From: a virus
Direction: 5' to 3' (one strand)
Virus record (IMG/VR): IMGVR_UViG_3300025141_014429
Span: 1 to 64,000 of that record
Length of the DNA stretch: 64,000 nucleotides
Shown here: positions 6,868-44,688 of the stretch, piece by piece
Layout: the number at the start of each line of letters is the position of its first letter
Numbering within the stretch: the stretch's first letter is position 1
The notes under the pieces: model-generated
The model's database searches: none
The model's input: the letters and a program-made list of their open reading frames with translations, nothing else
What the model was told of the DNA's origin: nothing
Program-made: the position numbers and the translations under genes

Positions 6868-6876
6868 GGAGAAAAC

Positions 6877-7014: not shown

Positions 7015-7015
7015 C

Positions 7016-7219: not shown

Positions 7220-7235
7220 TCTCAAAAATCAAAAG

Positions 7236-7265: not shown

Positions 7266-7297
7266 ATAAACACCTAATAAATAAAAGGAAAACCACT

Positions 7298-7510
7298 ATG
7301 ACAGAATCATATACACAACAAGAAGTAGAAGAACGAGCTAAACGCATCTTAAGCCAGTCAGGAGGACTAAGACGAGGAACTATCAATGAGTTTCGTAATA
7401 TGGCAAGCGGTGGAACTGAATACGGTATACGTGAGACTTATTACCCTGGAAAACCAAATCAGTTCTTTAGCGATGTCTTAGCTATTATTGAAGAATCAGA
7501 AGAAGGATAA
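7298..7510 (+). CDS. Small protein, second member of the three-copy family
   Basis: 70 aa, closely similar to the product of 381-596: YTQQEVEERAKRIL, GTINEFRNMASG, YGIRETYYPGKPNQFF. The conserved NEFR and YYPxKPNQFF blocks suggest a folded domain with a shared partner. Followed 4 bases later by the third, diverged copy. Function unknown. Confidence 0.85.
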   Translation: MTESYTQQEVEERAKRILSQSGGLRRGTINEFRNMASGGTEYGIRETYYPGKPNQFFSDVLAIIEESEEG

Positions 7511-7514
7511 ACAC

Positions 7515-7727
7515 ATGAAAACAAAACATACAAAACGAGACGTCGAACAACTCGGCCTTCAGATACTCGGCATGCCCGCATATGAACGTATGAATATTCT
7601 AACAGAAATGGCTGAGTACGCATCAACGCAAGATCATCCACTTAGAGACGAGTTCTATCCCCATAAGACACCCAAGTATTTCAGAGCTGTGATCTCTTAT
7701 GTCTTTCAGAACGGTGCCTTGAGTTAA
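7515..7727 (+). CDS. Small protein, third and diverged member of the family
   Basis: 70 aa. The start at 7515 follows AGAAGGATAAACAC. It keeps the layout of the two other copies: a DVEQLGLQILGMP helix, then LTEMAEYAS, then RDEFYPHKTPKYFRAVI. The identical residues are reduced to the structural core. Adjacent tandem position suggests local duplication followed by divergence. Confidence 0.78.
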   Translation: MKTKHTKRDVEQLGLQILGMPAYERMNILTEMAEYASTQDHPLRDEFYPHKTPKYFRAVISYVFQNGALS

Positions 7728-8177
7728 TCCCTATACTCCCAGAAGAGTAGGGCACGAGACGTCTTGCGCCCCGTGCACGCGATGTAGATTTCTCTTCGTT
7801 CGGCAGTGGCCAAAGAGCCACTGCCCTGGGCTCATGGAGCAGCCCTAGTACTCTGTCGTGTATAGCCTAAAAAACCTTTACAGTTCATTCCGGAAAAGAT
7901 AGCTCGCGCCCCGCGCGTGTAGAATGGACTTAGGGCGCGAGATAACTTGCGCTCGAGAACATGTTTTTTTGAAGACAACACAGCTTTTTCATTGACAGAC
8001 AGTACTTGACTGTACTCCCGCCGGACCCAGAGTCAATCCCAGACACCCCGTCATCACCCGGCAGCCCTTTTGGACAAGACGGCTCGCGCCCCGAGCGAGC
8101 GCGCGCACGTGGACACATCCCCACGCGTCACAGACAGCAACAAAGTGAACAAAGTGCGCGCCCTGGAGTCAACTTTT
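7728..8177 (+). other. 450-bp GC-rich noncoding island with strong hairpins
   Basis: No convincing gene on either strand; short frames here are compositional. The GC content is well above the surroundings. GGCAGTGGC 7802-7810 pairs with GCCACTGCC 7817-7825. AGAGTA 7744-7749 pairs with TACTCT 7849-7854, and CACGA 7753-7757 with TCGTG 7856-7860, the latter crossing the former. CTCGCGCCC 7903-7911 pairs with GGGCGCGAG 7933-7941, or alternatively GCGCGAG 7935-7941 with CTTGCGC 7946-7952. GCGCCCCG occurs three times (about 7766, 7907, 8086). Probably one or more structured RNAs or a control locus. Identity unknown. Confidence 0.55.
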
Positions 8178-8207
8178 CGTGTAAATCCCATCACTACACT
8201 GTATAAT
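8178..8207 (+). promoter_or_regulatory. Array promoter 12 (CGTGTAAA variant)
   Basis: CGTGTAAA 8178-8185, 16 bp, TATAAT 8202-8207. Leader ends CCCAAGGAAACATC. It drives the gene at 8239. Confidence 0.83.
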
Positions 8208-8238
8208 AAGATCATAACAAAAAACCCAAGGAAACATC

Positions 8239-8655
8239 ATGTCACTCGATCATCTTATCCCACAAGACGTATTCATAGACGGACTAGTCAATGGAGTCGC
8301 AATCCCGGCTCAGTCGTCCACTGAGCTCTACACTTTCGGCACGCGTCTTATTGACTTCGTAAATAATGCAAACAACGAGTACTGGGCAGGTTGGCACCCT
8401 TCGAAGACCGATCAGCTGATCATTGATCGCAACAACATACACATGATCGACATCGCCTTGGAAGCAGGCAAACTCATTTTCCTTATGCCCAGTAACGGCG
8501 CGGCACAGGATTTGCCAAAAGAGTTTGGACATGGCGCAGTCGGTGTTATTCTCTTCTGCATGCTTGAGAACGAGCAGATCAAAGAGACAACAGCTCCAAA
8601 GGCAGTCGAAGAGCCAAAGCCGAAGCGGCCGGCTCCCAATTTTGATATGCTGTAA
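8239..8655 (+). CDS. Hypothetical protein, 138 aa
   Basis: Soluble domain followed by a Pro/Lys-rich tail (EEPKPKRPAP) ending in NFDML, a short hydrophobic end that could be a docking tag. Base composition is richer in G+C than its neighbours. Two long minus-strand frames overlap it but lack start signals. Own promoter and AAGGAAACATC ribosome site. Function unknown. Confidence 0.8.
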   Translation: MSLDHLIPQDVFIDGLVNGVAIPAQSSTELYTFGTRLIDFVNNANNEYWAGWHPSKTDQLIIDRNNIHMIDIALEAGKLIFLMPSNGAAQDLPKEFGHGAVGVILFCMLENEQIKETTAPKAVEEPKPKRPAPNFDML

Positions 8656-8706
8656 TGCACTCCCCTCTCCACAATTGTCACAAAAAACCGAGGCATGCGC
8701 AAAACA

Positions 8707-8736
8707 CGTGCATAACCTCTTGGGCTCCTGTATAAT
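8707..8736 (+). promoter_or_regulatory. Array promoter 13 (CGTGCATA variant)
   Basis: CGTGCATA 8707-8714, 16 bp, TATAAT 8731-8736. Leader CAACCAACCAAGGAGTTATT. It drives the gene at 8764. Confidence 0.83.
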
Positions 8737-8763
8737 ATAGGGGCAACCAACCAAGGAGTTATT

Positions 8764-9078
8764 ATGAGTGTTTTACGTAAAGTCAAAGGTCAAGAGCTGA
8801 AGCTGGGAATATATTGGGAGCATGAAATATATTTCGCTCCTATCAAGGATAAGAACACCGGTAAGACTATTATGATACCGATGAAAAAGAAGATAGGTCC
8901 GTTTTATAACCATGTGTTTGTATGGACTGGCAGCTTCTGGTGTCCCAAGACCCGTTTTGAAAGATGGAGTGGAACACCAAAACTACAACAAATCAATCAA
9001 CGTTATGCTGATAGACCTACTCATTTTGTGGACCACATATTCGGTACCGATGAGGACGGCAACTCTAAGTTTGCTTAG
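8764..9078 (+). CDS. Hypothetical protein, 104 aa
   Basis: Basic, Trp/Tyr/Phe-rich soluble protein, monocistronic, with the canonical CCAAGGAGTTATT ribosome site. No recognisable family. Confidence 0.78.
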   Translation: MSVLRKVKGQELKLGIYWEHEIYFAPIKDKNTGKTIMIPMKKKIGPFYNHVFVWTGSFWCPKTRFERWSGTPKLQQINQRYADRPTHFVDHIFGTDEDGNSKFA

Positions 9079-9082
9079 AATT

Positions 9083-9112
9083 CATGCATATTTCAAAACC
9101 ACTTATTATAAT
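9083..9112 (+). promoter_or_regulatory. Array promoter 14 (CATGCATA variant)
   Basis: CATGCATA 9083-9090, 16 bp, TATAAT 9107-9112. Leader ACCAACCAATGGAG. It drives the gene at 9142. Confidence 0.78.
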
Positions 9113-9141
9113 ATAAACACCACCAACCAATGGAGAATATT

Positions 9142-9390
9142 ATGTCACAACATAAAACAAAATCAAATCAAGAGTTTTCAATCGAAAGACCTATCAAAAA
9201 ATCTCGTAAGGCACACAAATGCTGTTCATGTCAAAAAACAATACCCGCTAAGTCAAGCTATGTTCGAACAGTCGGTGTATCTGAATCCTATCGACATTAT
9301 GGTAACGACTTTTTTAGCAACGCATGGCATCAAGAATGTCTAGAAGACCATCAAGGATATATCCGCGATCGTTTAAGACGACAAGGATAG
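9142..9390 (+). CDS. Small zinc-finger-like protein, 82 aa
   Basis: The start at 9142 follows AATGGAGAATATT. KCCSCQKTI provides a CxxC knuckle around residue 27, and NAWHQEC provides His and Cys about 40 residues later, a treble-clef or Fpg-type finger layout. Basic at both ends. Probably binds nucleic acid or a protein partner. The zinc site is inferred from spacing only. Confidence 0.72.
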   Translation: MSQHKTKSNQEFSIERPIKKSRKAHKCCSCQKTIPAKSSYVRTVGVSESYRHYGNDFFSNAWHQECLEDHQGYIRDRLRRQG

Positions 9391-9398
9391 CAATATCC

Positions 9399-9428
9399 CG
9401 TGCAAATTTACAGATGCATCCGTATAAT
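9399..9428 (+). promoter_or_regulatory. Array promoter 15
   Basis: CGTGCAAA 9399-9406, 16 bp, TATAAT 9423-9428. Leader ACCAACCAATAAGG. It drives the gene at 9462. Confidence 0.86.
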
Positions 9429-9461
9429 ATAAACACCTACCAACCAATAAGGAAATATAAC

Positions 9462-9710
9462 ATGTTCAAAGTTTACGTTACATTTAAGACTGGAGATCGT
9501 CACCTCGACACCGATTGGTGCGATGAGAAGAAGCTGATGCAATCCTTATATCGTCTTATTCATGGACCGGTCGCTCGGTTAAACATTATCAAGGAAATAC
9601 GCGTTGTCGATCAAGATGACTATACTATATTCCTCAGTCAGGAAGGCAAACAAATCTTTCCTGCTATATTAACGCAACCGCAGGATAACAATCACATCAT
9701 TCAAAACTAA
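9462..9710 (+). CDS. Hypothetical protein, 82 aa
   Basis: Start at 9462 behind AATAAGGAAATATAAC; an upstream in-frame ATG lies inside the previous gene. The opening FKVYVTFKTGDRHLDTDW is a pair of beta strands followed by a helix. Unknown family. Its 3' end is overlapped by an open frame lacking a normal start (9681-9864). Confidence 0.75.
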   Translation: MFKVYVTFKTGDRHLDTDWCDEKKLMQSLYRLIHGPVARLNIIKEIRVVDQDDYTIFLSQEGKQIFPAILTQPQDNNHIIQN

Positions 9711-9864
9711 AATCCTTCGTATCATTCAGTTCTCACTTAGAGCGTTCGGTCAAGAGAATAGCAGAATAGTTATCAAGGTTCTAGAAGCACTAGAACGCGA
9801 ACACATCAAAGAGGAAGAGAAGTGGTTGCGTATCAATGGCCACAACTGGAAAATCAGCAGGTGA
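9681..9864 (+). other. Coding-like frame without a canonical start codon
   Basis: After the stop TAA of the +1 frame near 9670, a frame stays open to TGA at 9862-9864. It encodes about 58 helical, charged residues (for example LEALEREHIKEEEKWLRING), which look protein-like. No ATG, GTG or TTG lies near a ribosome site; only ATA or ATC follow CGCAGGATAACA. It could be a degraded gene, a non-canonical start, or a +1 frameshift extension of the upstream gene. Confidence 0.3.
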
Positions 9865-9871
9865 CAACTCA

Positions 9872-9901
9872 CGTGCAAAACATAAAACCAATCTGTATAA
9901 T
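9872..9901 (+). promoter_or_regulatory. Array promoter 16
   Basis: CGTGCAAA 9872-9879, 16 bp, TATAAT 9896-9901. Leader ACACACCAACCAAAGGAG. It drives the gene at 9929. Confidence 0.87.
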
Positions 9902-9928
9902 ATAAACACACCAACCAAAGGAGAATAC

Positions 9929-10153
9929 ATGCGATCATCAATCATCATTACAGTTCTAGTTAAGAATATAGTTTGGGACACAGATAGTCAAGAGGATATT
10001 ATTGAAAATAACCTCCCAGAAGAAGTACCTGTCCAAGTCGATCTAGCTTCAATACATAGTTTTGATTGTATCAATAAACAAATATGCAATCACCTTTCAG
10101 ACGAATATGGATGGTTGATCTCTGACTATGATTTAGAAGGTTATTCAAAATAA
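9929..10153 (+). CDS. Hypothetical protein, 74 aa
   Basis: Start at 9929 after AAAGGAGAATAC. A strand (SIIITVLVKNIVW) is followed by an acidic segment. No family assigned; monocistronic. Confidence 0.72.
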   Translation: MRSSIIITVLVKNIVWDTDSQEDIIENNLPEEVPVQVDLASIHSFDCINKQICNHLSDEYGWLISDYDLEGYSK

Positions 10154-10162
10154 ATCAAAACA

Positions 10163-10192
10163 CGTGCAAAATCAATTAGAGTTCTGTATAAT
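10163..10192 (+). promoter_or_regulatory. Array promoter 17
   Basis: CGTGCAAA 10163-10170, 16 bp, TATAAT 10187-10192. Leader ACCAACCAATAAGG. It drives the 40-aa gene at 10224. Confidence 0.86.
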
Positions 10193-10223
10193 ATAAACAC
10201 ATACCAACCAATAAGGAAACATT

Positions 10224-10346
10224 ATGAAAAACCAATCACCAACACAACCTTTTTTCGATCTCATTGAAAAAGAGTTAAAAGAATATGAACAAAAAATCGC
10301 ACAAAAAAATGGACATCAATCTAAAACGCGTGCAAAATCAAAATAA
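10224..10346 (+). CDS. Very small protein, 40 aa
   Basis: MKNQSPTQPFFDLIEKELK followed by a Lys/Gln-rich helix and basic tail. It has its own complete promoter, leader and AAGGAAACATT ribosome site, which argues that it is made. The promoter of the next gene overlaps its last six codons. Confidence 0.62.
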   Translation: MKNQSPTQPFFDLIEKELKEYEQKIAQKNGHQSKTRAKSK

Positions 10347-10358
10347 CCACTGTATAAT
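10329..10358 (+). promoter_or_regulatory. Array promoter 18
   Basis: CGTGCAAA 10329-10336, 16 bp, TATAAT 10353-10358. Long leader with two AACCAATAA copies before AAGGAG. It drives the gene at 10401. Confidence 0.86.
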
Positions 10359-10400
10359 ATAAACACCTAACCAATAATAAACAACCAATAAGGAGTCAAT

Positions 10401-10832
10401 ATGACTATTTCAAATAAAACAACCCTTCAAGAGCTTATCAAACTCGGTCTATTTTCAGAAGCTGATATCGAAAAGTTCAATAAAAAACTTCAAAGAGCAG
10501 CTGATAGCCAAGCTCGTAAAGCCTTAGTAGATGGCACCATGTCAGCTATCAAAGCTCTAGTTCAATCAGAAGTCCATAATGGAAATAAGTATTGGTCTGT
10601 TAAAACAGCAGCTCATAGCCTTGGTTTCATGAGTTATATCCAAGCTGATAGAGGGATCGTTCTCAAAGCTCTTACAAAGTTAACTGAGGAAGGGTATTTA
10701 ACTAAGATTGGTCTTAAAACCGTCGAAGGTAAGCTAACAGAGTTAACGCCTAAACAAGTTAACGCATTCCAAATCCGTTATGTAGTTACCCCCGTTGAAG
10801 CTGAAGGCGCTATCGTTCCAGTGGCCAAGTAA
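10401..10832 (+). CDS. Helical protein with repeated LQELIKLG module, 143 aa
   Basis: The first 45 residues (TLQELIKLGLFSEADIEKF...KLQRAADSQARKAL) recur in the proteins at 14265 (TLQELVDSGVITAADVAKFEKRL) and 11302 (TLKELVDLGLISQEM). They define a small paralogous module. The remainder looks like a winged-helix-type domain (LKALTKLTEEGYLTKIGLKT). I infer a DNA-binding or regulatory role; not proven. Confidence 0.78.
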   Translation: MTISNKTTLQELIKLGLFSEADIEKFNKKLQRAADSQARKALVDGTMSAIKALVQSEVHNGNKYWSVKTAAHSLGFMSYIQADRGIVLKALTKLTEEGYLTKIGLKTVEGKLTELTPKQVNAFQIRYVVTPVEAEGAIVPVAK

Positions 10833-10842
10833 GGCCCTGGAG

Positions 10843-10869
10843 GTGGGAGGACTTTAACCGGTCCCCCAC
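10843..10869 (+). terminator. Hairpin after gene 10401-10832
   Basis: GTGGGAGGAC 10843-10852 pairs with GTCCCCCAC 10861-10869 (one bulged A). A T-rich stretch (TTTTATTTT) starts 10 bases later. Likely terminator, slightly imperfect. Confidence 0.5.
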
Positions 10870-10887
10870 TGCCCTCACTTTTATTTT

Positions 10888-10917
10888 CGTGCAAAATCAA
10901 TATCATAGTTGTATAAT
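10888..10917 (+). promoter_or_regulatory. Array promoter 19
   Basis: CGTGCAAA 10888-10895, 16 bp, TATAAT 10912-10917. Leader CATCAACCAAAGGA. It drives the genes at 10945 and 11302. Confidence 0.86.
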
Positions 10918-10944
10918 ATAAACACATCAACCAAAGGATATATT

Positions 10945-11292
10945 ATGAAATACTTTTCAATCGACTATCGTTCACCCCCTTCTGGAATGGGACAAATCAT
11001 TGACACCAAAAAACCTGAGAAGGTTGGAGATCAATATAACTTCATTCTTATTGACTACGGTACTGATCCTCATGAAGATCCCAGCTATGTCATGACAAAA
11101 TACTTCTATTCAGAACAAGCAGCAGAAGAAGGATGGGCAGGAGCAGTTCTTCCCCAAATATTTCAATTCCTTCGAGACTCCAAAGTTACACATGTCCATG
11201 ACAGTGAGCTATCATATGAAGAGGAAGGGGCAGACGAGGATGGGTATTTCCTATTAGATCGCTGGATCGAAATTATGAATTCATATTTATAG
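10945..11292 (+). CDS. Hypothetical protein, 115 aa
   Basis: Start at 10945 after CAAAGGATATATT. Acidic soluble protein, aromatic-rich, no motif recognised. Followed by a small gene with a GGAGACAAA ribosome site 9 bases later. Confidence 0.75.
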   Translation: MKYFSIDYRSPPSGMGQIIDTKKPEKVGDQYNFILIDYGTDPHEDPSYVMTKYFYSEQAAEEGWAGAVLPQIFQFLRDSKVTHVHDSELSYEEEGADEDGYFLLDRWIEIMNSYL

Positions 11293-11301
11293 GAGACAAA
11301 A

Positions 11302-11454
11302 ATGGATGTCAGTGCACTTACGCTCAAAGAGTTGGTAGACCTAGGTCTGATATCTCAGGAGATGATCATACGAATTCAAACCCGTGCTGATCGTCAACTT
11401 GAGAGGATGGCACAAAACCATAAGTTGAGCAATTACATAAAACGAAAAAAATAA
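11302..11454 (+). CDS. Small protein, isolated LxELVxLG module, 50 aa
   Basis: SALTLKELVDLGLISQEMII and a basic tail (IQTRADRQLERM, KRKK) match the N-terminal module of the proteins at 10401 and 14265 without the C-terminal domain. It may act as a partner or competitor of the longer paralogues. TAGGAGACAAAA ribosome site. Confidence 0.68.
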   Translation: MDVSALTLKELVDLGLISQEMIIRIQTRADRQLERMAQNHKLSNYIKRKK

Positions 11455-11469
11455 ACTTTTTTTGAAGTT

Positions 11470-11521
11470 GGTCATTTTTTGACCGGTTTCCAATACGGAG
11501 CTCAAAATAATATGGTATAAT
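11470..11521 (+). promoter_or_regulatory. Sigma-A promoter with GGTCA/TGACC inverted repeat
   Basis: The inverted repeat GGTCA 11470-11474 / TGACC 11480-11484 is followed by a -10 element TATAAT at 11516-11521 within ATATGGTATAATATATC. There is no CGTGCAAA box. The same arrangement, base for base over much of its length, lies upstream of the paralogous sigma gene on the minus strand (17771-17822). The leader carries ACCAACCAACAAGGAG. Distinct promoter class, probably controlled at the repeat. Confidence 0.65.
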
Positions 11522-11552
11522 ATATCTATACCAACCAACAAGGAGTTTATTT

Positions 11553-12017
11553 ATGAATATCAACATTAATGAATATATCAAACTAGTTCACCATATCGCT
11601 CACAAATACCGATGGGCAGGAGCCGCTCATGAGGACTTGGTCAGTGCTGGGATAGAGGGACTAGTTGAGGCTAAGGAGAGATTTGACCCTGAAATGGGGA
11701 ACAAATACATTACTTATGCACATTGGTGGGTCCGAGCTTATATCCAAAAAGCTGTCAATTCTCACATCAAAAATAATCATAAATCATTGAATCAAGAGGA
11801 TAGCCTAGGGCGTCAGGGAATAGATAAGGTTGCTGCTGAATATGAAGCTGATACCGAATCATTGATGGCACCTTATATTGAAAGACTCTTAGCTGTATTA
11901 GCTCTATCTGAGCGTGTTATTATTTCAAAAAGATTTGATTTAAAAGGTCCGATACCCACCAAAAGAGAAGAGGTCCTTGAGGAAGCCCGATCTGAGCTAT
12001 CAGCATTGAAGGTATAA
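11553..12017 (+). CDS. Region-2-only sigma factor A (gp55-like), 154 aa
   Basis: Residues about 20-70 form sigma-70 region 2: EDLVSAGIEGLVEAKERFDP, then YITYAHWWVRAYIQKAV, which is the -10 recognition and melting helix with its conserved aromatics. The C-terminus keeps the first helix of region 4 (LALSERVIISKRFDL), but the helix-turn-helix that would follow is replaced by a short helix. T4 late sigma gp55 is likewise region 2 without region 4. Paralogue at 17258-17740; an orphan region 4 protein lies at 43065-43295. It probably directs host RNA polymerase to one phage promoter class. Confidence 0.85.
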   Translation: MNININEYIKLVHHIAHKYRWAGAAHEDLVSAGIEGLVEAKERFDPEMGNKYITYAHWWVRAYIQKAVNSHIKNNHKSLNQEDSLGRQGIDKVAAEYEADTESLMAPYIERLLAVLALSERVIISKRFDLKGPIPTKREEVLEEARSELSALKV

Positions 12018-12053
12018 AACCCCGATGGTTAGCTAAAAAAAGATAAATAAATA

Positions 12054-12083
12054 CGTGTAAAACTCAATATTTAGAAGTATAAT
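12054..12083 (+). promoter_or_regulatory. Array promoter 20 (CGTGTAAA variant)
   Basis: CGTGTAAA 12054-12061, 16 bp, TATAAT 12078-12083. A long A/C-rich leader precedes the gene at 12141. Just upstream, AACCCCGATGGTTAG (12018-12032) resembles the anti-leader loop of RNA B. Confidence 0.82.
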
Positions 12084-12140
12084 ATAACCATATAATAAAA
12101 CAACCCAACAAATCCAAATCAACATACCAAGGAAACAAAT

Positions 12141-13019
12141 ATGACAAATTTTTTAGAAGGAAGCAAGACTGTTAGACCCGAGACACCTATCATTGACAGT
12201 GTAGCAGAATTTACGCCTGATGCACTTAATCAAGACGGTATTTGGGCACATGCTTTCGATGAGTCAAACGACATTGAGATACCAGCGTACTTAGACAATC
12301 CTATCAAAACAGGACTAAGTTATATGGACTACATTCTTGGTGACGCAGGGTTCTATCCAACACAGTGTACCATCTTAACAGGTGACCCTGGATGTGGAAA
12401 GACTACTATGGCTCTCGAGATGGCATCTGCTATGCGTGGGCTCGGCTCTAATGTCGCATTTGCTTCCTGTGAGATGCGAAGAGAGATGGTCGCTAAATTT
12501 CAAAAGCGGCTCAAAGCAGAACATCCGATCAAAGTCATTACAGACAAGATCGTGCGAACTGCTAGAGGTTCTACCCGTGTTCCCTTTGCATCTCACGTTC
12601 CAACTCTCATTGAGACATGCGAGCGAATCCGTGCGCAAGATCCTGATAAGCCGTTCGTCCTCATTATTGATTCCCTTCAGGAGTTAGATGATGGACACTT
12701 CGGGACCGGGCGCAAGACATCGAAGACAGCATATCGTGCGCTGGACCGACTCAACAGTTACTGCAAGCAGACAGAATGTACTTTGATAGTCATTGGTCAG
12801 GTAACAAAGTCGGGTCAAATGGCCGGTAGCAATGATATCAAGCATCTCATCGATGCACATCTTCATCTATCAGTAGAACAAAAGGATGAAGAGATGCGAG
12901 GTGCTAGAATACTCCAAGCAACAAAGAATAGGTTTGCTGGATGCGGTCAGCTGGTGTTCCTCCAGATGAAGTCCGAAGGATTGCAGGAAATCGCACGTCT
13001 CAAGGAGAGCTCTTTATAA
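12141..13019 (+). CDS. RadA/Sms-like RecA-fold ATPase, 292 aa
   Basis: Walker A GDPGCGKT at residues 81-88, Walker B FVLIIDS at 172-178, and a KNRFA sequence at 262-266 matching the KNRFG motif diagnostic of RadA. It lacks both the N-terminal zinc finger and the C-terminal Lon-like domain of bacterial RadA, so it is a minimal core. Known RadA proteins are branch-migration helicases in recombination. By analogy this protein would help phage recombination-dependent replication. DnaB- or RecA-type relatives are less likely given KNRF. Confidence 0.85.
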   Translation: MTNFLEGSKTVRPETPIIDSVAEFTPDALNQDGIWAHAFDESNDIEIPAYLDNPIKTGLSYMDYILGDAGFYPTQCTILTGDPGCGKTTMALEMASAMRGLGSNVAFASCEMRREMVAKFQKRLKAEHPIKVITDKIVRTARGSTRVPFASHVPTLIETCERIRAQDPDKPFVLIIDSLQELDDGHFGTGRKTSKTAYRALDRLNSYCKQTECTLIVIGQVTKSGQMAGSNDIKHLIDAHLHLSVEQKDEEMRGARILQATKNRFAGCGQLVFLQMKSEGLQEIARLKESSL

Positions 13020-13030
13020 GTTATTAGATG

Positions 13031-13116
13031 TGTGTCGTTCATTGGTTGGTTACCTTTATGGGCGGTAGGTAAGAACGACACAAACTCCGATGGTTGGACC
13101 TACCGCCCACTTTTTT
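13031..13116 (+). ncRNA. Candidate RNA B: perfect pseudoknot with anti-leader loops and U-run
   Basis: Stem 1: TGTGTCGTTC 13031-13040 with GAACGACACA 13073-13082. Stem 2: TGGGCGGTAGGT 13059-13070 with ACCTACCGCCCA 13098-13109. The order 1-2-1'-2' is a classical H-type pseudoknot, followed by TTTTTT 13111-13116. Loop ATTGGTTGGT 13041-13050 is the exact complement of ACCAACCAAT. Loop AACTCCGATGGTTGG 13083-13097 is complementary to CCAACCA and to the SD GGAGTT of the array leaders. Located in the 3' UTR of the RadA-like gene, one base before the tRNA. Confidence 0.7.
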
Positions 13117-13117
13117 A

Positions 13118-13191
13118 GCACCAATAGCTCAAATGGAAAGAGCATCCGCCTTCTAAGCGGACGGTTGCAGGTTCGAGTCCTGCTTGGTGTA
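13118..13191 (+). tRNA. tRNA-Arg (anticodon UCU)
   Basis: Full cloverleaf: acceptor GCACCAA/TTGGTGT (one G-U), D stem GCTC/GAGC, anticodon stem TCCGC/GCGGA with loop CTTCTAA, T stem GCAGG/CCTGC with loop TTCGAGT, discriminator A13191. Anticodon TCT at 13152-13154 reads AGA, the dominant arginine codon of the AT-rich genes to the right. CCA is not encoded. It lies between two pseudoknot RNAs and has no promoter of its own in between. Confidence 0.95.
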
Positions 13192-13204
13192 CAGACTTAA
13201 ACAT

Positions 13205-13278
13205 ACGAATCGATTCTGGGTTCGGGTGCTATGGTAGGATCGGTTCGTTCCTTGGTTGACCATAGCACCCTTTTTTTT
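13205..13278 (+). ncRNA. Candidate RNA C: second pseudoknot with anti-SD loop and U-run
   Basis: Stem 1: ACGAATCGAT 13205-13214 with ATCGGTTCGT 13239-13248 (one G-U). Stem 2: GGGTGCTATGGT 13224-13235 with ACCATAGCACCC 13259-13270, immediately followed by eight Ts. Same 1-2-1'-2' topology and nearly the same stem lengths as RNA B, but unrelated stem sequences. Loop TCCTTGGTTG 13249-13258 is the exact complement of CAACCAAGGA, the SD region of leaders at promoters 6, 13 and 24 and of sigma B. Starts 13 bases after the tRNA. Confidence 0.7.
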
Positions 13279-13279
13279 G

Positions 13280-13309
13280 CGTGTAACTCTCGTGATAACA
13301 AAGTATAAT
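13280..13309 (+). promoter_or_regulatory. Array promoter 21 (CGTGTAAC variant)
   Basis: CGTGTAAC 13280-13287 starts one base after the U-run of RNA C; 16 bp; TATAAT 13304-13309. It drives the gene at 13334. Confidence 0.78.
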
Positions 13310-13333
13310 AACAACACATCCAACGGAGGCTCT

Positions 13334-13519
13334 ATGAAAAGAGGTACACATGTAACAATCACACAACACGAAACTGAAAGTGTGGTGGGTCAACAAGGTA
13401 TTATAACAGCTGCACATTGTGTGACAGGATCTGTGAGATATCATGTCAAAACTGAAACAGCTACATATTATTGTTCAGTCACTCAGCTCAAATTAAGTAA
13501 CGCAATTGCGTGCAAATAA
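13334..13519 (+). CDS. Small beta-rich protein, 61 aa
   Basis: Start at 13334 after AACGGAGGCTCT, one of the strongest ribosome sites here. The MKRGTHVTITQHETES opening and GQQGIITAA resemble a small SH3/KOW-type barrel. Its last codons contain the next promoter's CGTGCAAA. Function unknown. Confidence 0.7.
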   Translation: MKRGTHVTITQHETESVVGQQGIITAAHCVTGSVRYHVKTETATYYCSVTQLKLSNAIACK

Positions 13520-13538
13520 ACATTAAACCACGTATAAT
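13509..13538 (+). promoter_or_regulatory. Array promoter 22
   Basis: CGTGCAAA 13509-13516, 16 bp, TATAAT 13533-13538. It overlaps the end of the preceding gene and drives 13570. Confidence 0.85.
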
Positions 13539-13569
13539 AGATACACACCCAAACAATCAAGGAAATATT

Positions 13570-14169
13570 ATGACCCATACAAAACAACAAGTTCTTGACC
13601 TTCTTCAAGACCCTGACTATGTCGGAGCAGCAATCATTCTTATCGGACAAAATCAGACTCAGGATGAATTGAGAACCAAGCATACCCATAATCTTAATGG
13701 AGAAGGATTCTCAGCCGCATATGCAAAGGTTGGTACAAGGTTTTATGAGTTTGTTACAGGTATTCAAACCTCAACTGGTAAGAAGAAGTGGCAATCCCGA
13801 TCCCTCGCTCACCCAAAAGCTGATCAGATATTTCGTCGTTATATCAACAATCGTGGCTGTAACAATGCTATTGACTATGCTCGTGATATTGCAGCTCTCC
13901 ATTGGAAACAACTAGGTGCTATGTTTGAAGTTGGTTTTACTGTTCCATCATATGACGTTCAAGTTGGAGAACCTGAAGCTGCACCAGCTAAACAAGAACC
14001 AGCACGTATATTGTTGGCTTGCCAGTTTATCAAAGTCAGTGGTAAGGCCGTCCAAGTCAAGATGAATGGGAATGGCAAAAAGATTTGGTTACCAAAGTCT
14101 CAAGTCCAATCAACAGAAGATGGATTGAGTATACCAACATGGTTGGCTTCCAACAAAGGACTCCTGTAA
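13570..14169 (+). CDS. Hypothetical protein, 199 aa
   Basis: Start at 13570 behind CAAGGAAATATT. Two parts are separated by a Pro/Ala/Glu linker (GEPEAAPAKQEPAR). The N-terminal domain of about 135 residues has several Trp and basic residues. The C-terminal domain of about 55 residues (ILLACQFIKVSGKAVQVKM then KKIWLPKSQV) looks like a small beta barrel. Unknown function; the linker and basic faces would fit a nucleic-acid-associated protein. Confidence 0.75.
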   Translation: MTHTKQQVLDLLQDPDYVGAAIILIGQNQTQDELRTKHTHNLNGEGFSAAYAKVGTRFYEFVTGIQTSTGKKKWQSRSLAHPKADQIFRRYINNRGCNNAIDYARDIAALHWKQLGAMFEVGFTVPSYDVQVGEPEAAPAKQEPARILLACQFIKVSGKAVQVKMNGNGKKIWLPKSQVQSTEDGLSIPTWLASNKGLL

Positions 14170-14194
14170 GGGGTCCAACTTCATCTTTCATTTT

Positions 14195-14224
14195 CGTGCA
14201 AAACTCTAATCTAACCCGTATAAT
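14195..14224 (+). promoter_or_regulatory. Array promoter 23
   Basis: CGTGCAAA 14195-14202, 16 bp, TATAAT 14219-14224. The leader CAACAACCAAGGAG is an exact match for the loop of RNA C. Listed elsewhere in this annotation as promoter 24 of the leader comparison. It drives the gene at 14265. Confidence 0.86.
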
Positions 14225-14264
14225 ATAAACACATAATCCAATAACAACAACCAAGGAGAATATT

Positions 14265-14678
14265 ATGTCATTCAATCAAAAAACCCTTCAAGAGCTTGTA
14301 GATTCAGGCGTCATTACAGCAGCTGATGTTGCTAAGTTTGAAAAACGTCTAGCTCGTTTAGATAAGAAAGCAGCTAAGGAAGCTAGAGCAGCTGAAGTCC
14401 TTACCAAAGTTGGAGATGCTTTTCATGAGCTGACCAAGGAAGGTAATCCAACAAAGCATCGTGCAATTTGGGAAAAAGTTGGTCGTGAAGCTCATAGCCG
14501 TGACGAAGTCCTAGATGCTCTTAGAACTCTACGAGATAACGGAGAAGCCCGTACCTATAAGCTTAGTAACAATAACTTTCAAATCTTTTGGGCTCAACCT
14601 CTACCTGTTGTAGAAGAAGCTGATGAAGATGCAGATGCAGAAGCTCTTGCTGTTATCCCTGGTGTTGATGAGGTTTAG
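14265..14678 (+). CDS. Helical protein with LQELVDSG module, 137 aa
   Basis: TLQELVDSGVITAADVAKFEKRL matches the N-terminal module of the proteins at 10401 and 11302. A Lys/Ala-rich helix, a winged-helix-like part (VLDALRTLRDNGEARTYKL) and an acidic tail (EEADEDADAEAL) follow. Architecture like a small DNA-binding regulator with an acidic C-terminal arm. Function inferred from layout only. Confidence 0.78.
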   Translation: MSFNQKTLQELVDSGVITAADVAKFEKRLARLDKKAAKEARAAEVLTKVGDAFHELTKEGNPTKHRAIWEKVGREAHSRDEVLDALRTLRDNGEARTYKLSNNNFQIFWAQPLPVVEEADEDADAEALAVIPGVDEV

Positions 14679-14686
14679 GCCTCATC
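14667..14686 (+). terminator. Hairpin overlapping stop codon
   Basis: GATGAGG 14667-14673 pairs with CCTCATC 14680-14686 around the TAG stop. No T-run follows, so it may protect the 3' end rather than terminate. Confidence 0.3.
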
Positions 14687-14692
14687 ACCTAG

Positions 14693-14722
14693 CGTGTAAA
14701 CATCGAAGTTCAGTTGTATAAT
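14693..14722 (+). promoter_or_regulatory. Array promoter 24 (CGTGTAAA variant)
   Basis: CGTGTAAA 14693-14700, 16 bp, TATAAT 14717-14722. Short leader ACATCAAGGAGATAAC. It drives 14743 and 14932. Confidence 0.84.
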
Positions 14723-14742
14723 ATAAACATCAAGGAGATAAC

Positions 14743-14922
14743 ATGACAATAACACTTAAATCACTTTTCACTGCCTTCATCTCTCTGGTTATGCCAGGAG
14801 TGGGCCAACTCTTCTATGGAGAACTAGGTTGGGCACTATTTTGGTTTGTAACAGCAATCATCACAGGTGGACTTACAATATGGCCATCAGCAATTCACTG
14901 TCTTTTTTTAGCAAACAAATAG
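14743..14922 (+). CDS. TM2-domain-like membrane peptide, 59 aa
   Basis: Two hydrophobic segments. The first ends in MPGVGQLFYGELGWALFWF, matching the PGxGhxYxG turn of TM2-domain proteins; the second is FVTAIITGGLTIWP. It would sit in the inner membrane with a short loop. Perfect CAAGGAGATAAC ribosome site and its own promoter. A role in membrane take-over or exclusion is speculative. Confidence 0.75.
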   Translation: MTITLKSLFTAFISLVMPGVGQLFYGELGWALFWFVTAIITGGLTIWPSAIHCLFLANK

Positions 14923-14931
14923 GAGTATCAC

Positions 14932-15213
14932 ATGAAACTAACAGATCTATCCGCAGCATTAGCTAATCTAACACCGCTAGAACGTACACAAATCGAAGCA
15001 GCAAAGAGTAGCTATATGTTGCATGTTGCTATAGTAACATCTGAATATATTAAGCAAAAGGAAGAGCTGGAAAATTTTGAATTGTTCACCGATCCAGAAG
15101 ATGCCATATCTCAGCAAACACTAGTACTAATCCGTAAGCAGGTCGCAGAGATGGAGATGAAGGTATCACAACTAGCATGTGAGCTGGAGAATCATTTCAA
15201 TATATCAGCGTAA
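14932..15213 (+). CDS. Helical/coiled-coil protein, 93 aa
   Basis: Heptad-like helices dominate (LVLIRKQVAEMEMKVSQLA). Predicted oligomer. Ribosome site TAGGAGTATCAC, 9 bases after the TM2-like gene, suggesting co-expression. Unknown function. Confidence 0.75.
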   Translation: MKLTDLSAALANLTPLERTQIEAAKSSYMLHVAIVTSEYIKQKEELENFELFTDPEDAISQQTLVLIRKQVAEMEMKVSQLACELENHFNISA

Positions 15214-15215
15214 TA

Positions 15216-15245
15216 CGTGTAAAACGATCGATTGACTAGTATAAT
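15216..15245 (+). promoter_or_regulatory. Array promoter 25 (CGTGTAAA variant)
   Basis: CGTGTAAA 15216-15223, 16 bp, TATAAT 15240-15245. Leader ACACACCAACCAAAGG. It drives the lipoprotein gene. Confidence 0.86.
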
Positions 15246-15272
15246 ATAAACACACCAACCAAAGGAAACAAC

Positions 15273-15896
15273 ATGATCACACTACTTATTCTTACAGCAT
15301 GCGGAAACGAAAACCAAATCATTGACACATCCCCACCCTCAGCTAGTGTCGAAGAAGTGACAGAAGAATGTGCACCGGCAGAACAACCTGTCATCAACCT
15401 CACATGTCCGGAAGTGCAGCTAACATGCCCTGAACCGGTTATCAATGTCCAAGTTTCAGCTCCGGATGTACAGGTTGATGTTGCAGCTCCAGATGTCGAT
15501 GTCACTGTGGAAGGCCCTGATATGTCAGGTATAGAAGCAGCAATTGATGAAATGATTGATGCGTTGAGCAGCAATTCTGGCGGCACTTCAGGAGACAAGG
15601 AATGGATATTCTTTGCTAGTGATATAACAGTCGCATCAGGAGATGTTATAACTGCTACAAACACTAGAACCACCGATCTGATCATAACAGAGATAAGACT
15701 ATCCAATACCATTGAATGCTGGATAGAAGGATCTGCAGGTATTATTGCTTACGTTGGGCACAACACCGGTGCACCAACAAATAGTCAACAAGGCTCAAAT
15801 CAACTAAGTCTCCCTATACATCAAGGTGAAACACTATATTGCAGCACCCATGAAAGTGGTGCAGGATACGTATTTGTCAACGGTTACTATCAATAA
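15273..15896 (+). CDS. Phage-encoded lipoprotein, 207 aa
   Basis: A very short signal sequence MITLLILTAC ends in lipobox LTAC with the lipidated Cys at residue 10. Then come a low-complexity acidic region with near-repeats (LTCPEVQ/LTCPEPV, APDVQVDV/APDVDVTV) and a beta-rich C-terminal domain of about 100 residues with two Cys. The unusually short signal is odd but the n/h/lipobox order is intact. T5 Llp shows that such phage lipoproteins can block receptors against superinfection. That role is inferred here. Confidence 0.78.
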   Translation: MITLLILTACGNENQIIDTSPPSASVEEVTEECAPAEQPVINLTCPEVQLTCPEPVINVQVSAPDVQVDVAAPDVDVTVEGPDMSGIEAAIDEMIDALSSNSGGTSGDKEWIFFASDITVASGDVITATNTRTTDLIITEIRLSNTIECWIEGSAGIIAYVGHNTGAPTNSQQGSNQLSLPIHQGETLYCSTHESGAGYVFVNGYYQ

Positions 15897-15926
15897 CATG
15901 CAAATTCTAGATAGGTATAGTATAAT
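15897..15926 (+). promoter_or_regulatory. Array promoter 26 (CATGCAAA variant)
   Basis: CATGCAAA 15897-15904, 16 bp, TATAAT 15921-15926. Leader ATACCAACTAGGAG. Last clear member of the array; it drives the run 15956-16648. Confidence 0.8.
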
Positions 15927-15955
15927 AACAATGCATACCAACTAGGAGTTAAACT

Positions 15956-16084
15956 ATGACAACCATCACCTGGAAGAACCGACAAGGTACACACACTGTA
16001 ACATTCACCCATTCAATCGCACGAGTATTCATAATGAAACTACGAACACTTGGCCTCACCTTTACTCTAACCAAGGAGCTCTAA
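15956..16084 (+). CDS. Very small protein, 42 aa
   Basis: MTTITWKNRQGTHTVTFTHS then a basic helix. CTAGGAGTTAAACT ribosome site behind promoter 26. The 3' end contains CCAAGGAG for the next start. Unknown. Confidence 0.58.
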   Translation: MTTITWKNRQGTHTVTFTHSIARVFIMKLRTLGLTFTLTKEL

Positions 16085-16086
16085 CC

Positions 16087-16185: not shown

Positions 16186-16187
16186 AC

Positions 16188-17257: not shown

Positions 17258-17740
17258 TTACTTAAGTAAGGCAGCAAGCTCCTCACGTGCCTCAGCAAGG
17301 TGAGCTTCTCGTTTAGGTTCTACTTCAAAATCAAAATCAAATCTTCTTGCAATAATAACTCTTTCCTTTACGGAGAGAACTGCCAACATACGGTCCACAT
17401 ATGGGCCCATGATATCTTGCATGCTAGGGCCTGAAGTATCGGGGACCTCAGCTAACTTTTCATGCATAGATTTGCCACAACTGTCTTGCGATTCAATGGA
17501 GACTAAACCACTTTGCGCGCGAATATGACGGTCAGCTGCTTGTTGTACTTTACCCCGTATCCACCACCAAGCGAAGGTAATAAACTTGTTCCCGGTATCC
17601 GGATCGAAACGTTCCTTAGCGATTTGTAAACCCATATATCCCTCTGCGACGAGGTCGTCGTACTCTGCGCCACACCACGCGTATCGCTTCGCCATTTGGT
17701 GGATAAGAGGGACTAGATTTGGATATTCTACATTTGACAT
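17258..17740 (-). CDS. Region-2-only sigma factor B, 160 aa
   Basis: Clear paralogue of the sigma at 11553: DDLVAEGYMGLQIAKERFDP then FITFAWWWIRGKVQQAADRH, including the invariant Trp-rich melting helix. The C-terminus has LSVKERVIIARRFDF and a helix ending REELAALLK, but no region 4 helix-turn-helix. Promoter and leader (ACAACCAAGGAG) are duplicated from the other copy. It could recognise a second promoter class or be expressed at a different time. G+C content is higher than that of its sister. Confidence 0.85.
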   Translation of the reverse strand: MSNVEYPNLVPLIHQMAKRYAWCGAEYDDLVAEGYMGLQIAKERFDPDTGNKFITFAWWWIRGKVQQAADRHIRAQSGLVSIESQDSCGKSMHEKLAEVPDTSGPSMQDIMGPYVDRMLAVLSVKERVIIARRFDFDFEVEPKREAHLAEAREELAALLK

Positions 17741-17770
17741 ATTATACTCCTTGGTTGTTTGTATAGATAT

Positions 17771-17822
17771 ATTATACCATATTATTTTTAAGTCTGTATC
17801 CGGAACCGGTCAAAAAATGACC
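17771..17822 (-). promoter_or_regulatory. Sigma-B promoter, duplicate of the sigma-A promoter
   Basis: On the minus strand, GGTCA/TGACC inverted repeat (17822-17808), then ATACxG, then AATATGGTATAATATATC with the -10 at 17776-17771. Matches the sigma-A promoter over about 90 bp. No CGTGCAAA box. Confidence 0.65.
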
Positions 17823-18181
17823 AACTTAAAAAAAAGTTTAAAAAAGTTTTTTGTACTTGGAGCTCGAATGTGCGAAGCCGATATGCATCTCGCGCTAAGG
17901 GCTAGGGCGCCTAGGCCCTGCCCGGGGGCGCTGCGTCGGGGCCCGCGTCTAGCCCACCGGCGCGGCCTGCGCCAGCCCCTGGCCCGCCTAAGGACGTTCA
18001 CTCTGCTCGAGAATTTTTCAAAAACTTTTAGTACAGCCAGACAACGAAGAGAACGATATATCACGATTATCACACGAAACACACGAAGTAACTCATTTTC
18101 TGCACGGAAGAGCAGTGGCTATAGACCAAAATCAAAAAAAATTCTTCGGGAAAATTTCAAAACTTTTTCCTATTTATATTC
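17823..18181. other. Noncoding gap with extremely GC-rich core (about 17860-18005)
   Basis: Flanks are A/T-rich. The core reads mostly G and C and can form many hairpins, for example CTAGGGCGCCTAG, AGGGC/GCCCT and GCGC-GGCCT-GCGC near 17965. A 199-aa plus-strand frame and a minus-strand frame cross it, but are Arg/Pro-rich and without ribosome sites, so I regard them as compositional. Possible structured RNA, replication origin or foreign insert. It separates the two sigma/early genes from the virion-type region. Confidence 0.45.
18171..18178 (+). promoter_or_regulatory. TATTTATA octamer before a leader-poor gene
   Basis: TATTTATA ends 3 bases before ATG 18182 and no SD is present. Similar octamers stand before 20276, 26064, 29004, 36012 and 44732. 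Candidate late-promoter element; unproven. Confidence 0.3.
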
Positions 18182-43037: not shown

Positions 43038-43066
43038 AAAAGCTCACTTTATGTGAGCTTTTTTTT
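43038..43066. terminator. Rho-independent terminator
   Basis: AAAAGCTCAC 43038-43047 pairs with GTGAGCTTTT 43053-43062, followed by more Ts. It ends the unit coming from yeaH and, in reverse, serves the converging gene 43065. Confidence 0.88.
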
Positions 43067-43295
43067 ATAAATTAATTTTCTTTTTAATCTTTTTAAGAAC
43101 TTGTTTTTCTATTTGACAAATTCTCATTCTTGTTACATTAAAAAGATTCCCTATATCTTGAAGGGTCCATTCTTTTCTTTTTGTTCCTACAATTACACAA
43201 TTACCAGATGATTTATCTTTGATCCAATATCTGCACGCTTTTAATTTACAGCCTGTGCAATTTTGTTCTTGAAACTTATAACATTTCATTCTCAC
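43065..43295 (-). CDS. Orphan sigma-70 region 4 protein with Cys-rich head, 76 aa
   Basis: C-terminal half RKEWTLQDIGNLFNVTRMR and ICQIEKQVLKKI is a sigma-70 region 4.2 helix-turn-helix (TLEEIGK.FNVTRERIRQIE.KALRKL). The N-terminus has Cys 5, 13, 16 and 21, a possible metal or Fe-S site. The two sigma proteins at 11553 and 17258 have region 2 without this part, so this protein could be the missing module, analogous to T4 gp33, which replaces region 4 at the beta flap. Confidence 0.78.
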   Translation of the reverse strand: MRMKCYKFQEQNCTGCKLKACRYWIKDKSSGNCVIVGTKRKEWTLQDIGNLFNVTRMRICQIEKQVLKKIKKKINL

Positions 43296-43365: not shown

Positions 43366-44688
43366 TTGTCTAAACTAAAAAACCGAAAACTATTTGTAAT
43401 TGATACTAGTGTTCTACTTTATGATAAATCATCAATACACTCATTCCCAGGAAATGACTTAATCATACCATTAGTTGTTCTAGACGAATTAGACAGATTC
43501 AAAGACAAGAAAGGAATTGTTGGTGAAAATGCAAGATATATAAATCGCTATCTTGACAACCTTAGAAGTACAGGAAAGCTTTATCAAGGAATAGAGATAC
43601 AAAATAAACAAACAATTAGAGTTGAATTAGGTGGAATGAGAGATGTTCCTGTTGGATTGGATCCTAATCTTGCAGATAATAAAATCATTTCTGTTGCCAT
43701 GAATTTGCAAGGAAAAACAAAGCAAAAGGTTGTAGTTGTCACTAAAGATATAAATTTCAGAGTTAAATGTGATGCATTAAGTATACTTGCAGAAGACTAC
43801 TATAAAGACAAAATCATTGAAAGTTCAGAAGAAATATATCAAGGGCACATTGAAATAGACGTTGAAAGTAGTTTCATTGATGATGTCTACAGCGAAAAAA
43901 TTAAAAACATATCAGACATTGAAGAATTATGTCAAAAAAGAATTTATGAAAATCATTTTTTCTGTCTAAAGAATGGTAGTCAGTCTTTCATAGGAATGAA
44001 CAACGGAGGACAAGTAAAAAAAGCTCCTGAAAATTCTCAACTTTTAGAAGATTTCATGGGTATCAAGCCAAGAAATAGAGAACAGGTATATGCCTTAAAT
44101 CTACTATGTGATGAAAATATTCCTCTTGTTTCACTTGCCGGTCTTGCTGGGTCAGGAAAAACTTTCTTAACACTTATGGCTGCGATTGATTCACTTAATA
44201 AGAAAAAGTATGAGAGGATTGTAATAACAAGAAATATACAACCTGTAGGTAGAGACATTGGTTTTTTACCTGGAGACGTTAACGATAAGATGATGCCTTG
44301 GATGGCACCAATTATGGATAACTTTAGACATGGGCTAAAAGATAAGAACTTAATGTATTTTCATGCAATGAAAGATAAAGGACATATAGAAATAGCACCA
44401 CTTTCATTCATCAGAGGTAGAACATTTTCAAATACATTTCTCATACTTGACGAAGCTCAAAATGCATCCATTCATGAACTTAAGACAGTAATTACAAGAA
44501 TGGGAGAAAATAGCAAAATTGTGTTACTTGGAGACATTGATCAAATTGATACGCCTTATTTAGATTCGCTTTCAAACGGTCTAACAATTGTTGCAGAAAA
44601 GTTTAAAGAGAGTAATTTAGCAGGTCATGTCTTACTTAAAAAAGGTGAGAGATCTTCACTGGCAACAATAGCTTCGAAGATAATTTAG
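43366..44688 (+). CDS. PIN-PhoH (YlaK-type) protein, 440 aa, TTG start
   Basis: TTG start behind AATAAGGAGTTAAT. N-terminal PIN nuclease domain (LFVIDTSVLLYD, LDELDRFK, ending DNKIISVAMNL then VTKDINFRVK), then a PhoH ATPase with Walker A GLAGSGKT (residue about 262) and FLILDEAQNAS. PIN-PhoH proteins are predicted RNA-unwinding and cleaving enzymes; PhoH is common in marine phages, the PIN fusion less so. Likely a role in host RNA degradation. Confidence 0.9.
   Translation: MSKLKNRKLFVIDTSVLLYDKSSIHSFPGNDLIIPLVVLDELDRFKDKKGIVGENARYINRYLDNLRSTGKLYQGIEIQNKQTIRVELGGMRDVPVGLDPNLADNKIISVAMNLQGKTKQKVVVVTKDINFRVKCDALSILAEDYYKDKIIESSEEIYQGHIEIDVESSFIDDVYSEKIKNISDIEELCQKRIYENHFFCLKNGSQSFIGMNNGGQVKKAPENSQLLEDFMGIKPRNREQVYALNLLCDENIPLVSLAGLAGSGKTFLTLMAAIDSLNKKKYERIVITRNIQPVGRDIGFLPGDVNDKMMPWMAPIMDNFRHGLKDKNLMYFHAMKDKGHIEIAPLSFIRGRTFSNTFLILDEAQNASIHELKTVITRMGENSKIVLLGDIDQIDTPYLDSLSNGLTIVAEKFKESNLAGHVLLKKGERSSLATIASKII

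Follow-up and report, generated by a model that had tools for sequence, protein, structure and literature searches.

A candidate split sigma factor in a T4-like phage, with region 2 proteins and a separately encoded region 4.2 protein

Can a phage sigma factor be divided among separate genes, so that one polypeptide reads the -10 element and another reads the -35 element? Three sigma-type genes raise this question in the stretch of DNA analyzed here (the window), which comprises the first 64,000 bases of the linear 123,028-bp IMG/VR phage record IMGVR_UViG_3300025141_014429. We read the phage as a T4-like myovirus from its structural genes. A sequence-only reading of the window had pointed to two sigma paralogues, at 11553 and 17258, and to a third gene at 43065 that could supply what they lack. 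The coordinates and strands that it gave for the three genes are correct. Judged by profile scores, the sigma-type matches are real and far above chance. Searching the whole 123,028-bp record with the Sigma70_r2 and Sigma70_r4 profiles revealed no match beyond these three proteins. The record probably falls short of the complete genome and may lack a longer truncated sigma factor.

Region 2 fragments and a detached region 4.2 protein

Sigma fragment A (11553..12017, plus strand, 154 aa) and its paralogue, fragment B (17258..17740, minus strand, 160 aa), have the same architecture and are 45% identical. Both exceed the curated Pfam cut-off of 24 bits for Sigma70_r2, fragment A with 45.7 bits (E 5.7e-12, residues 5-68) and fragment B with 52.6 bits (E 4.1e-14, residues 10-69). 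Region 2 of fragment A is followed by a linker, a region 4.1-like helix (residues ~106-130) and a short C-terminal helix. Region 3 and the region 4.2 helix-turn-helix are absent from both fragments. Neither protein qualifies as a complete sigma-70 factor: Pfam finds no Sigma70_r4 in them, and their coverage of the NCBIfam sigma70-ECF model TIGR02937 stops at position 128-130 of 165. Pfam and TIGR02937 therefore agree with the earlier description of paralogues that keep region 2 and the first helix of region 4 but lack the -35-binding helix-turn-helix.

The C-terminal parts of the fragments are less sharply defined. Residues 106-144 of fragment A align weakly with region 4.1 of RpoS, an alignment that is not significant by itself. 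After the 4.1 helix, both fragments continue for about 25 residues and end in KRE..L.EAR.EL.AL. In our reading, this final helix resembles the last helix of region 4, and the intervening first helix of the helix-turn-helix is missing. A single-chain AlphaFold model of fragment A was built on an alignment that used only region 2 of long sigma factors; an earlier alignment with the full long sigma factors misplaced the C-termini of the short proteins and was dropped. The model has a pLDDT of ~90 or above over most of region 2. It places helices at residues 106-115, 118-127 and 138-153 with middling confidence, block means in the C-terminal half range from 43 to 74, and the linker has low confidence. 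Foldseek searches with this model returned sigma factors, and sequence alignment with A, together with the Pfam and TIGR02937 matches, supports the assignment of B. A search of IMG/VR for relatives of the 11553 and 17258 proteins found none.

The regions upstream of the two genes also match. The 98 nt aligned, at 11452..11549 (plus strand) for fragment A and 17743..17840 (minus strand) for fragment B, agree at 88% of positions. The region before A contains the palindrome GGTCATTTTTTGACC and GGTATAATATA. Both regions are free of the GTGYAAA promoter box described below, which would suit the 11553 and 17258 proteins as regulators made ahead of the firing of their target promoters.

The third gene (43065..43295, minus strand) encodes a 76-aa protein with an N-terminal four-cysteine module followed by region 4.2, as identified by Pfam, TIGR02937, a family profile and a structure model. 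Its start is likely the ATG at 43289 rather than the GTG at 43295, because many family members open with MKC; AAGGAG lies upstream of this start. Numbered from that ATG, the cysteines are C3, C14, C19 and C31, and region 4.2 reads TLQDIGNLFNVTRMRICQIEK. Residues 34-72 match positions 12-50 of the 50-position Sigma70_r4 model with E 1.3e-9 and 37.9 bits, above the curated cut-off of 24.1. The sequence-only reading had called this protein nearly pure region 4.2. That description fits its second half; the first half is the four-cysteine module.

The single-chain model of the 43065 protein has a mean pLDDT of 91.6 and helices at residues 3-10, 32-38, 43-50 and 54-72. In the best Foldseek rows, residues ~33-74 align with SigA region 4 at 41-52% identity over 31-34 residues. 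The Foldseek E-values are not significant (best 0.6) and the VIA-align Z is at most 3.1; the region 4.2 assignment rests on sequence profiles. Compared with PDB sequences, the family profile matched region 4 of Taq SigA with E 1e-7. Within the recognition helix, the family has M in place of E and C in place of R of Taq SigA. For the cysteine half, we read no match from the Foldseek or VIA-align lists, a result that does not imply a new fold, and the module matched no sigma family in Pfam, PHROGs or NCBIfam. PHROGs and NCBIfam hold no dedicated model for the small-protein family, and the only PHROG matched by the 43065 protein is phrog_351.

We collected the family from IMG/VR with a DNA pattern for TRMR[I/V]CQIE, which covers the helix-turn-helix only. 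The residues of this motif are invariant by construction, and the cysteines lie outside it. The small protein was found in at least 120 stretches. All 120 stretches listed encode the motif protein, nearly always at a length of ~75-120 aa, and 118 of these 120 matches have C-x10-C-x4-C-x10..16-C ahead of region 4.2. The N-terminal part is absent from the other two loci as read. The four cysteines are invariant in a 41-member alignment, as are one glycine and one lysine outside the search motif.

Relatives were scarce in other collections. Among 50,697 phage records, the 43065 protein found no relatives as query; two other family members used as queries retrieved 41 and 2 records. No match in these spans 80% of the query, and the strongest ones lie in the region 4.2 part. 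The 84,980 bacterial and archaeal genomes searched contained four small-protein loci, all in contigs of metagenome-assembled genomes (MAGs). Phage contigs with the small protein were binned in MAGs of Halobacteriovorax sp. and Methylococcaceae TMED69. The Halobacteriovorax sp. contig and one IMG/VR record are both 101,404 bases long, so binned phage DNA is likely.

The 43065 gene looks like a single-gene unit, since a terminator-like hairpin read from the sequence (AAGCTCAC..GTGAGCTT, 43039..43060, minus strand) lies directly 3' of it. Its divergent neighbor (43366..44688, plus strand) is a PIN-PhoH gene with PIN_4 and PhoH matches in Pfam. PIN-PhoH is divergent to the small-protein gene in 81 of 109 loci. 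Genes of unknown function at 40480-42789 adjoin 43065 and have no Pfam match above cut-off; relatives of 42042, 42520 and 40480 occur at 77, 70 and 52, respectively, of the 109 small-protein loci.

The fragments and the small protein tile on sigma profiles. On the 165 positions of TIGR02937, the 11553 protein covers 7-128, the 17258 protein 12-130 and the 43065 protein 129-165. On PHROG 351, the corresponding spans are 505-700, 515-693 and 693-725. The same junction appears on RpoD_Cterm, where a truncated sigma factor from a 340-kb relative covers 2-195 and the 43065 protein covers 194-227.

Truncated sigma factors and a -35 box in related phages

We searched 50 records of at least 50 kb that bear the small protein, taken from the 120 stretches listed, for Sigma70_r2. 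Matches above cut-off were present in 12 of the 50: 9/9 records of at least 200 kb, 2/13 of 100-200 kb and 1/28 of the smaller ones, counts that are not independent because the records share descent. In all 12, the sigma factor contains region 2, stops shortly after region 4.1 and lacks region 4.2. Two of these truncated sigma factors were scanned in Pfam; both have region 3, and one also has region 1.2. An alignment of 10 truncated sigma factors has 33 invariant columns, and regions 2 to 4.1 are kept although the sequences vary widely.

The end point is uniform in a wider sample. The best 80 of 442 sigma relatives, a set biased towards the query, all end 29-35 residues past the start of LRF/RLRF, a region 4.1 motif, and none has a helix-turn-helix. 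After the end of region 4.1, we counted 13-31 residues in 93 truncated sequences versus 40-53 in six full-length ones. In a phylogenetic tree, the truncated group is set apart by a branch that has 84% bootstrap and an SH-aLRT of 38; this tree holds only six full-length rows, as the TRERIRQIEA control pattern yielded mostly short contigs.

The reverse search found the small protein in 3 of the 28 records in which a sigma factor had been found, or in 3 of the 4 that reach at least 130 kb. The sole record of at least 130 kb without it also lacks a gp55-like gene and may lack that part of the genome. Where one record has both, the small-protein and sigma genes lie ~40-270 kb apart, a separation that would explain why fragments seldom contain both. 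Both genes are present on a 306-kb contig in a Methylococcaceae MAG, at 127 kb and 244 kb. A 145-kb record encodes one truncated sigma factor and a second sigma factor that ends in LRLRFGVPAQARVTSDDGVRERIMAIEAKALAKLKPNKRG. This second protein runs from region 2 to region 4.1 and still has the last helix of region 4; only the opening helix of the helix-turn-helix has been lost. We read its internal loss as the same kind as that in the 11553 and 17258 proteins.

The window also contains a distinctive promoter. A pattern search identified 22 copies of GTG[C/T]AA-N17-TATAAT on the plus strand between 893 and 15245, with a spacer of exactly 17 bp throughout. They start at 893, 1247, 1592, 3847, 4255, 5297, 5965, 6402, 6627, 7237, 8179, 9400, 9873, 10164, 10330, 10889, 12055, 13281, 13510, 14196, 14694 and 15217. 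Elsewhere in the record, the pattern occurs three more times on the plus strand and never on the minus strand. TTGACA placed 16-18 bp before TATAAT is absent from the record. T4-type late promoters (TATAAATA) occur 7 times on the plus strand and 14 times on the minus strand with no cluster upstream of late genes, and this candidate was dropped.

The small early genes and the GTGYAAA promoters lie in the first 20 kb of the window. GC content is ~37-46% in 1-20000 and mostly 28-38% in 20001-64000, and the GC skew shifts at ~20 kb. The window has a single tRNA gene, tRNA-Arg (TCT), at 13118-13192.

We searched for the box in the related phages. Box plus TATAAT gave 120 matches in 49 small-protein records versus 7 for the backwards pattern, with most of the 120 falling in five records; T4 has one match. 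This first pattern demanded TATAAT and so missed GC-richer phages. In a 298-kb record without this motif, an unbiased search upstream of genes returned GGTGCAA as the top 7-mer and the dyad GTGCA-N16-AGGTA. GTGCAAA-N17-TANNNT sites occur in this record and in another of 55.6% GC, many of them just before start codons.

A second pattern, GTGYAAA-N16..17-TANNNT, was drawn after looking at four of the group records. It matched 281 times versus 79 backwards in 40 group records, and 189 versus 62 in the 36 records left when the four source records are removed. The 40 records were chosen mainly by size; 37 bear the small protein and 3 are known for the sigma factor only. The corresponding counts were 34 versus 46 backwards in 31 control phages, namely T4, eight other named phages of 130-550 kb and 22 IMG/VR records that were picked by TRERIRQIEA and not by absence of the small protein. 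Small-protein records lacking a box excess were kept in the count, with 1 versus 0 matches at 340 kb, 1 versus 1 at 293 kb, 4 versus 2 at 369 kb and 0 versus 3 at 109 kb. The box thus accompanies the group across GC contents and -10 sequences, as expected with a shared reader. The small protein may be that reader.

A proposed split sigma factor and rival readings

We propose, with somewhat more belief than doubt, that this phage encodes a sigma factor in separate pieces, a -10-reading fragment and the detached -35-reading region 4.2 protein 43065. In the proposed mechanism, the sigma fragment, which terminates in the first region 4 helix, would use region 2 to bind both core RNA polymerase and the -10 element. 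The 43065 protein would contribute only the -35-reading helix-turn-helix and would be stabilized by its four-cysteine site, which may hold zinc or an iron-sulphur cluster. It would dock on the region 4.1 helix of the fragment, on the beta-flap tip, or on both, and so complete domain 4. The completed sigma factor would steer polymerase to phage promoters with GTG[C/T]AAA instead of TTGACA. Two region 2 paralogues and one region 4.2 protein would provide two -10 modules, which may be interchangeable, and one -35 module, as the sequence-only reading proposed. In this phage, the 11553 and 17258 paralogues most likely serve as the -10 pieces; in larger relatives, that role would fall to the longer sigma factor that reaches region 4.1. 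The data show how the sequences are built, how they tile, that both pieces recur within single records and that the promoter box recurs in the group; from these we infer that the pieces associate physically, that the small protein recognizes DNA, that the cysteines form a metal site and that the partners in this phage are those named.

Several observations count against the proposal. The pieces are encoded tens to hundreds of kilobases apart, the 11553 and 17258 proteins lack relatives in IMG/VR, and several small-protein records show no box excess. Host polymerase normally serves early promoters, and the box could therefore mirror what a host sigma factor prefers. In addition, a gp55-like protein occurs alongside the small protein in more records than the truncated sigma factor does. 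This protein is encoded outside the window, at 70385-71185 of the record. It has a borderline match to the late sigma family phrog_234, with E 0.0025 over residues 20-160, and no Sigma70_r2 in Pfam. A gp55-like protein is present in 42 of 50 small-protein records and in 7 of 28 sigma-bearing records.

The distribution of the gp55-like protein would fit a role of the small protein as the counterpart of T4 gp33, sitting on the beta flap and partnering the gp55-like protein rather than 11553, 17258 or the truncated sigma factors. According to the available text of PMC2988020, T4 gp33 sits at the sigma4 site of the beta flap. In the group, we found no convincing gp33: its family, phrog_254, was detected in the T4 control but had no credible match in 49 small-protein records, where the only hit had E 0.006 over 30 positions inside a 634-aa frame. 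gp33 is divergent, however, so one could have been overlooked. The same text describes gp33 as having neither DNA sequence recognition nor discernible sigma similarity, whereas the 43065 protein retains region 4.2 with the identity to SigA given above. A gp33-like role would also leave unexplained a second set of sigma factors that lack precisely region 4.2. We consider this role the main rival, possible but unlikely as a replacement for the split sigma factor, with which it is compatible. The partner of 43065 in this phage may be 11553/17258, the gp55-like protein or a truncated sigma factor outside the record. The idea of a sigma factor in two pieces is well supported by the tiling, the truncated sigma factors in relatives and the shared -35 box, while the assignment of a partner to 43065 here stays among several candidates.

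Regulators are often encoded alone and divergently, as the 43065 gene is, and its cysteine module is unmatched to any sigma family in Pfam, PHROGs or NCBIfam. The small protein might accordingly be an independent DNA-binding or anti-sigma-like regulator that took its helix-turn-helix from region 4.2, with the fragments acting alone on -10-driven promoters, much as T4 gp55, which has region 2 and no region 4, can support basal transcription (PMC2988020, available text). It would then be a coincidence that the pieces abut at one point on several sigma profiles, and another that the small protein co-occurs with sigma factors from which exactly region 4.2 is missing, and the phage promoters keep a strongly conserved -35 box at fixed spacing; we regard this explanation as improbable. 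Still further from the data, the split might be meaningless, with decayed sigma genes, an unrelated small protein and a host sigma factor doing the work. The lack of IMG/VR relatives for the 11553 and 17258 copies would agree with decay, and the functions of the pieces are deduced from their sequences. Decay is hard to reconcile with the conservation of regions 2 to 4.1 and the uniform end point of the truncated sigma factors, or with the retention of the four cysteines and the divergent PhoH neighbor by the small protein, and we give it very little credence.

A broader form of the split sigma factor is more speculative, and we offer it tentatively as a less probable extension. One detachable -35 subunit bearing a metal or iron-sulphur site could be common to several -10 subunits, comprising the truncated sigma factors, the compact 11553/17258 type and perhaps the gp55-like late sigma. 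Promoters would then be chosen combinatorially, and the cysteines could make that choice sensitive to redox or metal state.

Relation to known two-part systems

The sequence-only reading had suggested that a genuine region 4 partner would be without precedent. This does not hold, as SigO (sigma4) and RsoA (sigma2) of Bacillus subtilis already form a two-subunit sigma factor whose parts must cooperate, according to the accessible portions of PMC10028694 and PMC10141391. As described there, sigma domains 2 and 4 on different polypeptides cooperate at one promoter, which is the likeness to the phage pieces. That system is bacterial and has the whole of sigma4 in one subunit, whereas in the phage the cut falls within region 4 and separates 4.1 from 4.2. 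A four-cysteine module is a further feature of the detached phage piece, and the phage genes are far apart.

T4 gp55 and gp33 have also been termed a split sigma, and T4 late promoters lack a -35 element (PMC2988020, available text). The likeness is a phage region 2 protein with a separate beta-flap protein, and our record also encodes a gp55-like protein. The two systems differ in that gp33, as described in that text, does not read DNA, whereas region 4.2 in 43065 is genuine and a -35 box is present in the promoters. The 43065 protein had no match to phrog_254 and is not in the T4 gp33 family. A split sigma factor is therefore already known in kind.

The phage proteins gp34 and gp33 of SPO1 together serve late transcription, at promoters that have an upstream box and a -10 box (PMC3601020, available text). 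We considered and rejected SPO1 as the same arrangement, since gp34 spans positions 4-163 of the 165 in the sigma70-ECF model and so has no cut inside region 4. SPO1 gp33 has its own Pfam family, Phage_Gene33 (PF25742), and lacks region 4; this profile matches SPO1 gp33 and not 43065. Ordinary phage sigma-70 factors, such as RpoD of Microcystis phage MaAM05, are homologous to the truncated sigma factors in regions 2, 3 and 4.1 and differ in carrying region 4.2 in the same chain.

WhiB-like proteins offer another comparison: they too are small, have four cysteines and act on region 4 of sigma. Among the Foldseek matches of the 43065 model are SigA region 4 chains taken from WhiB complexes. WhiB, however, contacts sigma4 in trans, whereas a single chain of 43065 contains both the cysteines and region 4.2. 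The WhiB cysteine spacing is C-xn-C-x2-C-x5-C, from which the C-x10-C-x4-C-x10..16-C of the 43065 family differs. No WhiB match was found for 43065, for which Sigma70_r4 was the only Pfam match at E up to 1.

Large aquatic phages share, among other genes, a sigma factor and PhoH (PMC12619734), and the available parts of that paper, of PMC7162821 and of PMC9429907 mention no sigma split. In the open-access PMC literature, of which our search had partial coverage, we recognized no phage sigma factor with a detached region 4.2. As far as these searches show, what is new is that the cut separates 4.1 from 4.2, that the detached piece bears a cysteine module, that the arrangement is spread among uncultured phages and that a -35 box is associated with it. 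Sigma domain 4 appears to be cut near the point where DNA reading begins, and many large phages encode the pieces in separate genes. Should these pieces cooperate, they would form a natural experiment on the modular independence of sigma regions and a phage counterpart of SigO-RsoA. They could also provide a link to T4 gp55/gp33, as a gp33-like position that still reads DNA. The analysis points as well to a protein family without its own PHROG or NCBIfam model and to a promoter class for reading the genes of uncultured phages.

Two other features of the record were observed. Near the region 4.2 and PhoH genes, window positions 36012-40511 encode a VWA-like protein (36012), a SpoVR-like protein (37187) and a large ATPase (38577), presumably a YeaH-SpoVR-PrkA set. 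The best PHROGs for the 36012 and 38577 proteins are 19072 and 22605, both of unknown function. Many otherwise different proteins open with a similar leader, such as MKITRRQLRQIIxE. They include those at 18182, 20237, 21051, 23133, 26711, 27160, 28074 and 28992 in the window and those at 103412, 116809 and 117374 of the record. We take this leader to resemble the capsid-targeting leaders of T4, which are cut by the prohead protease after (L/I)xE, and by this analogy the proteins that bear it may be packed in the phage head.
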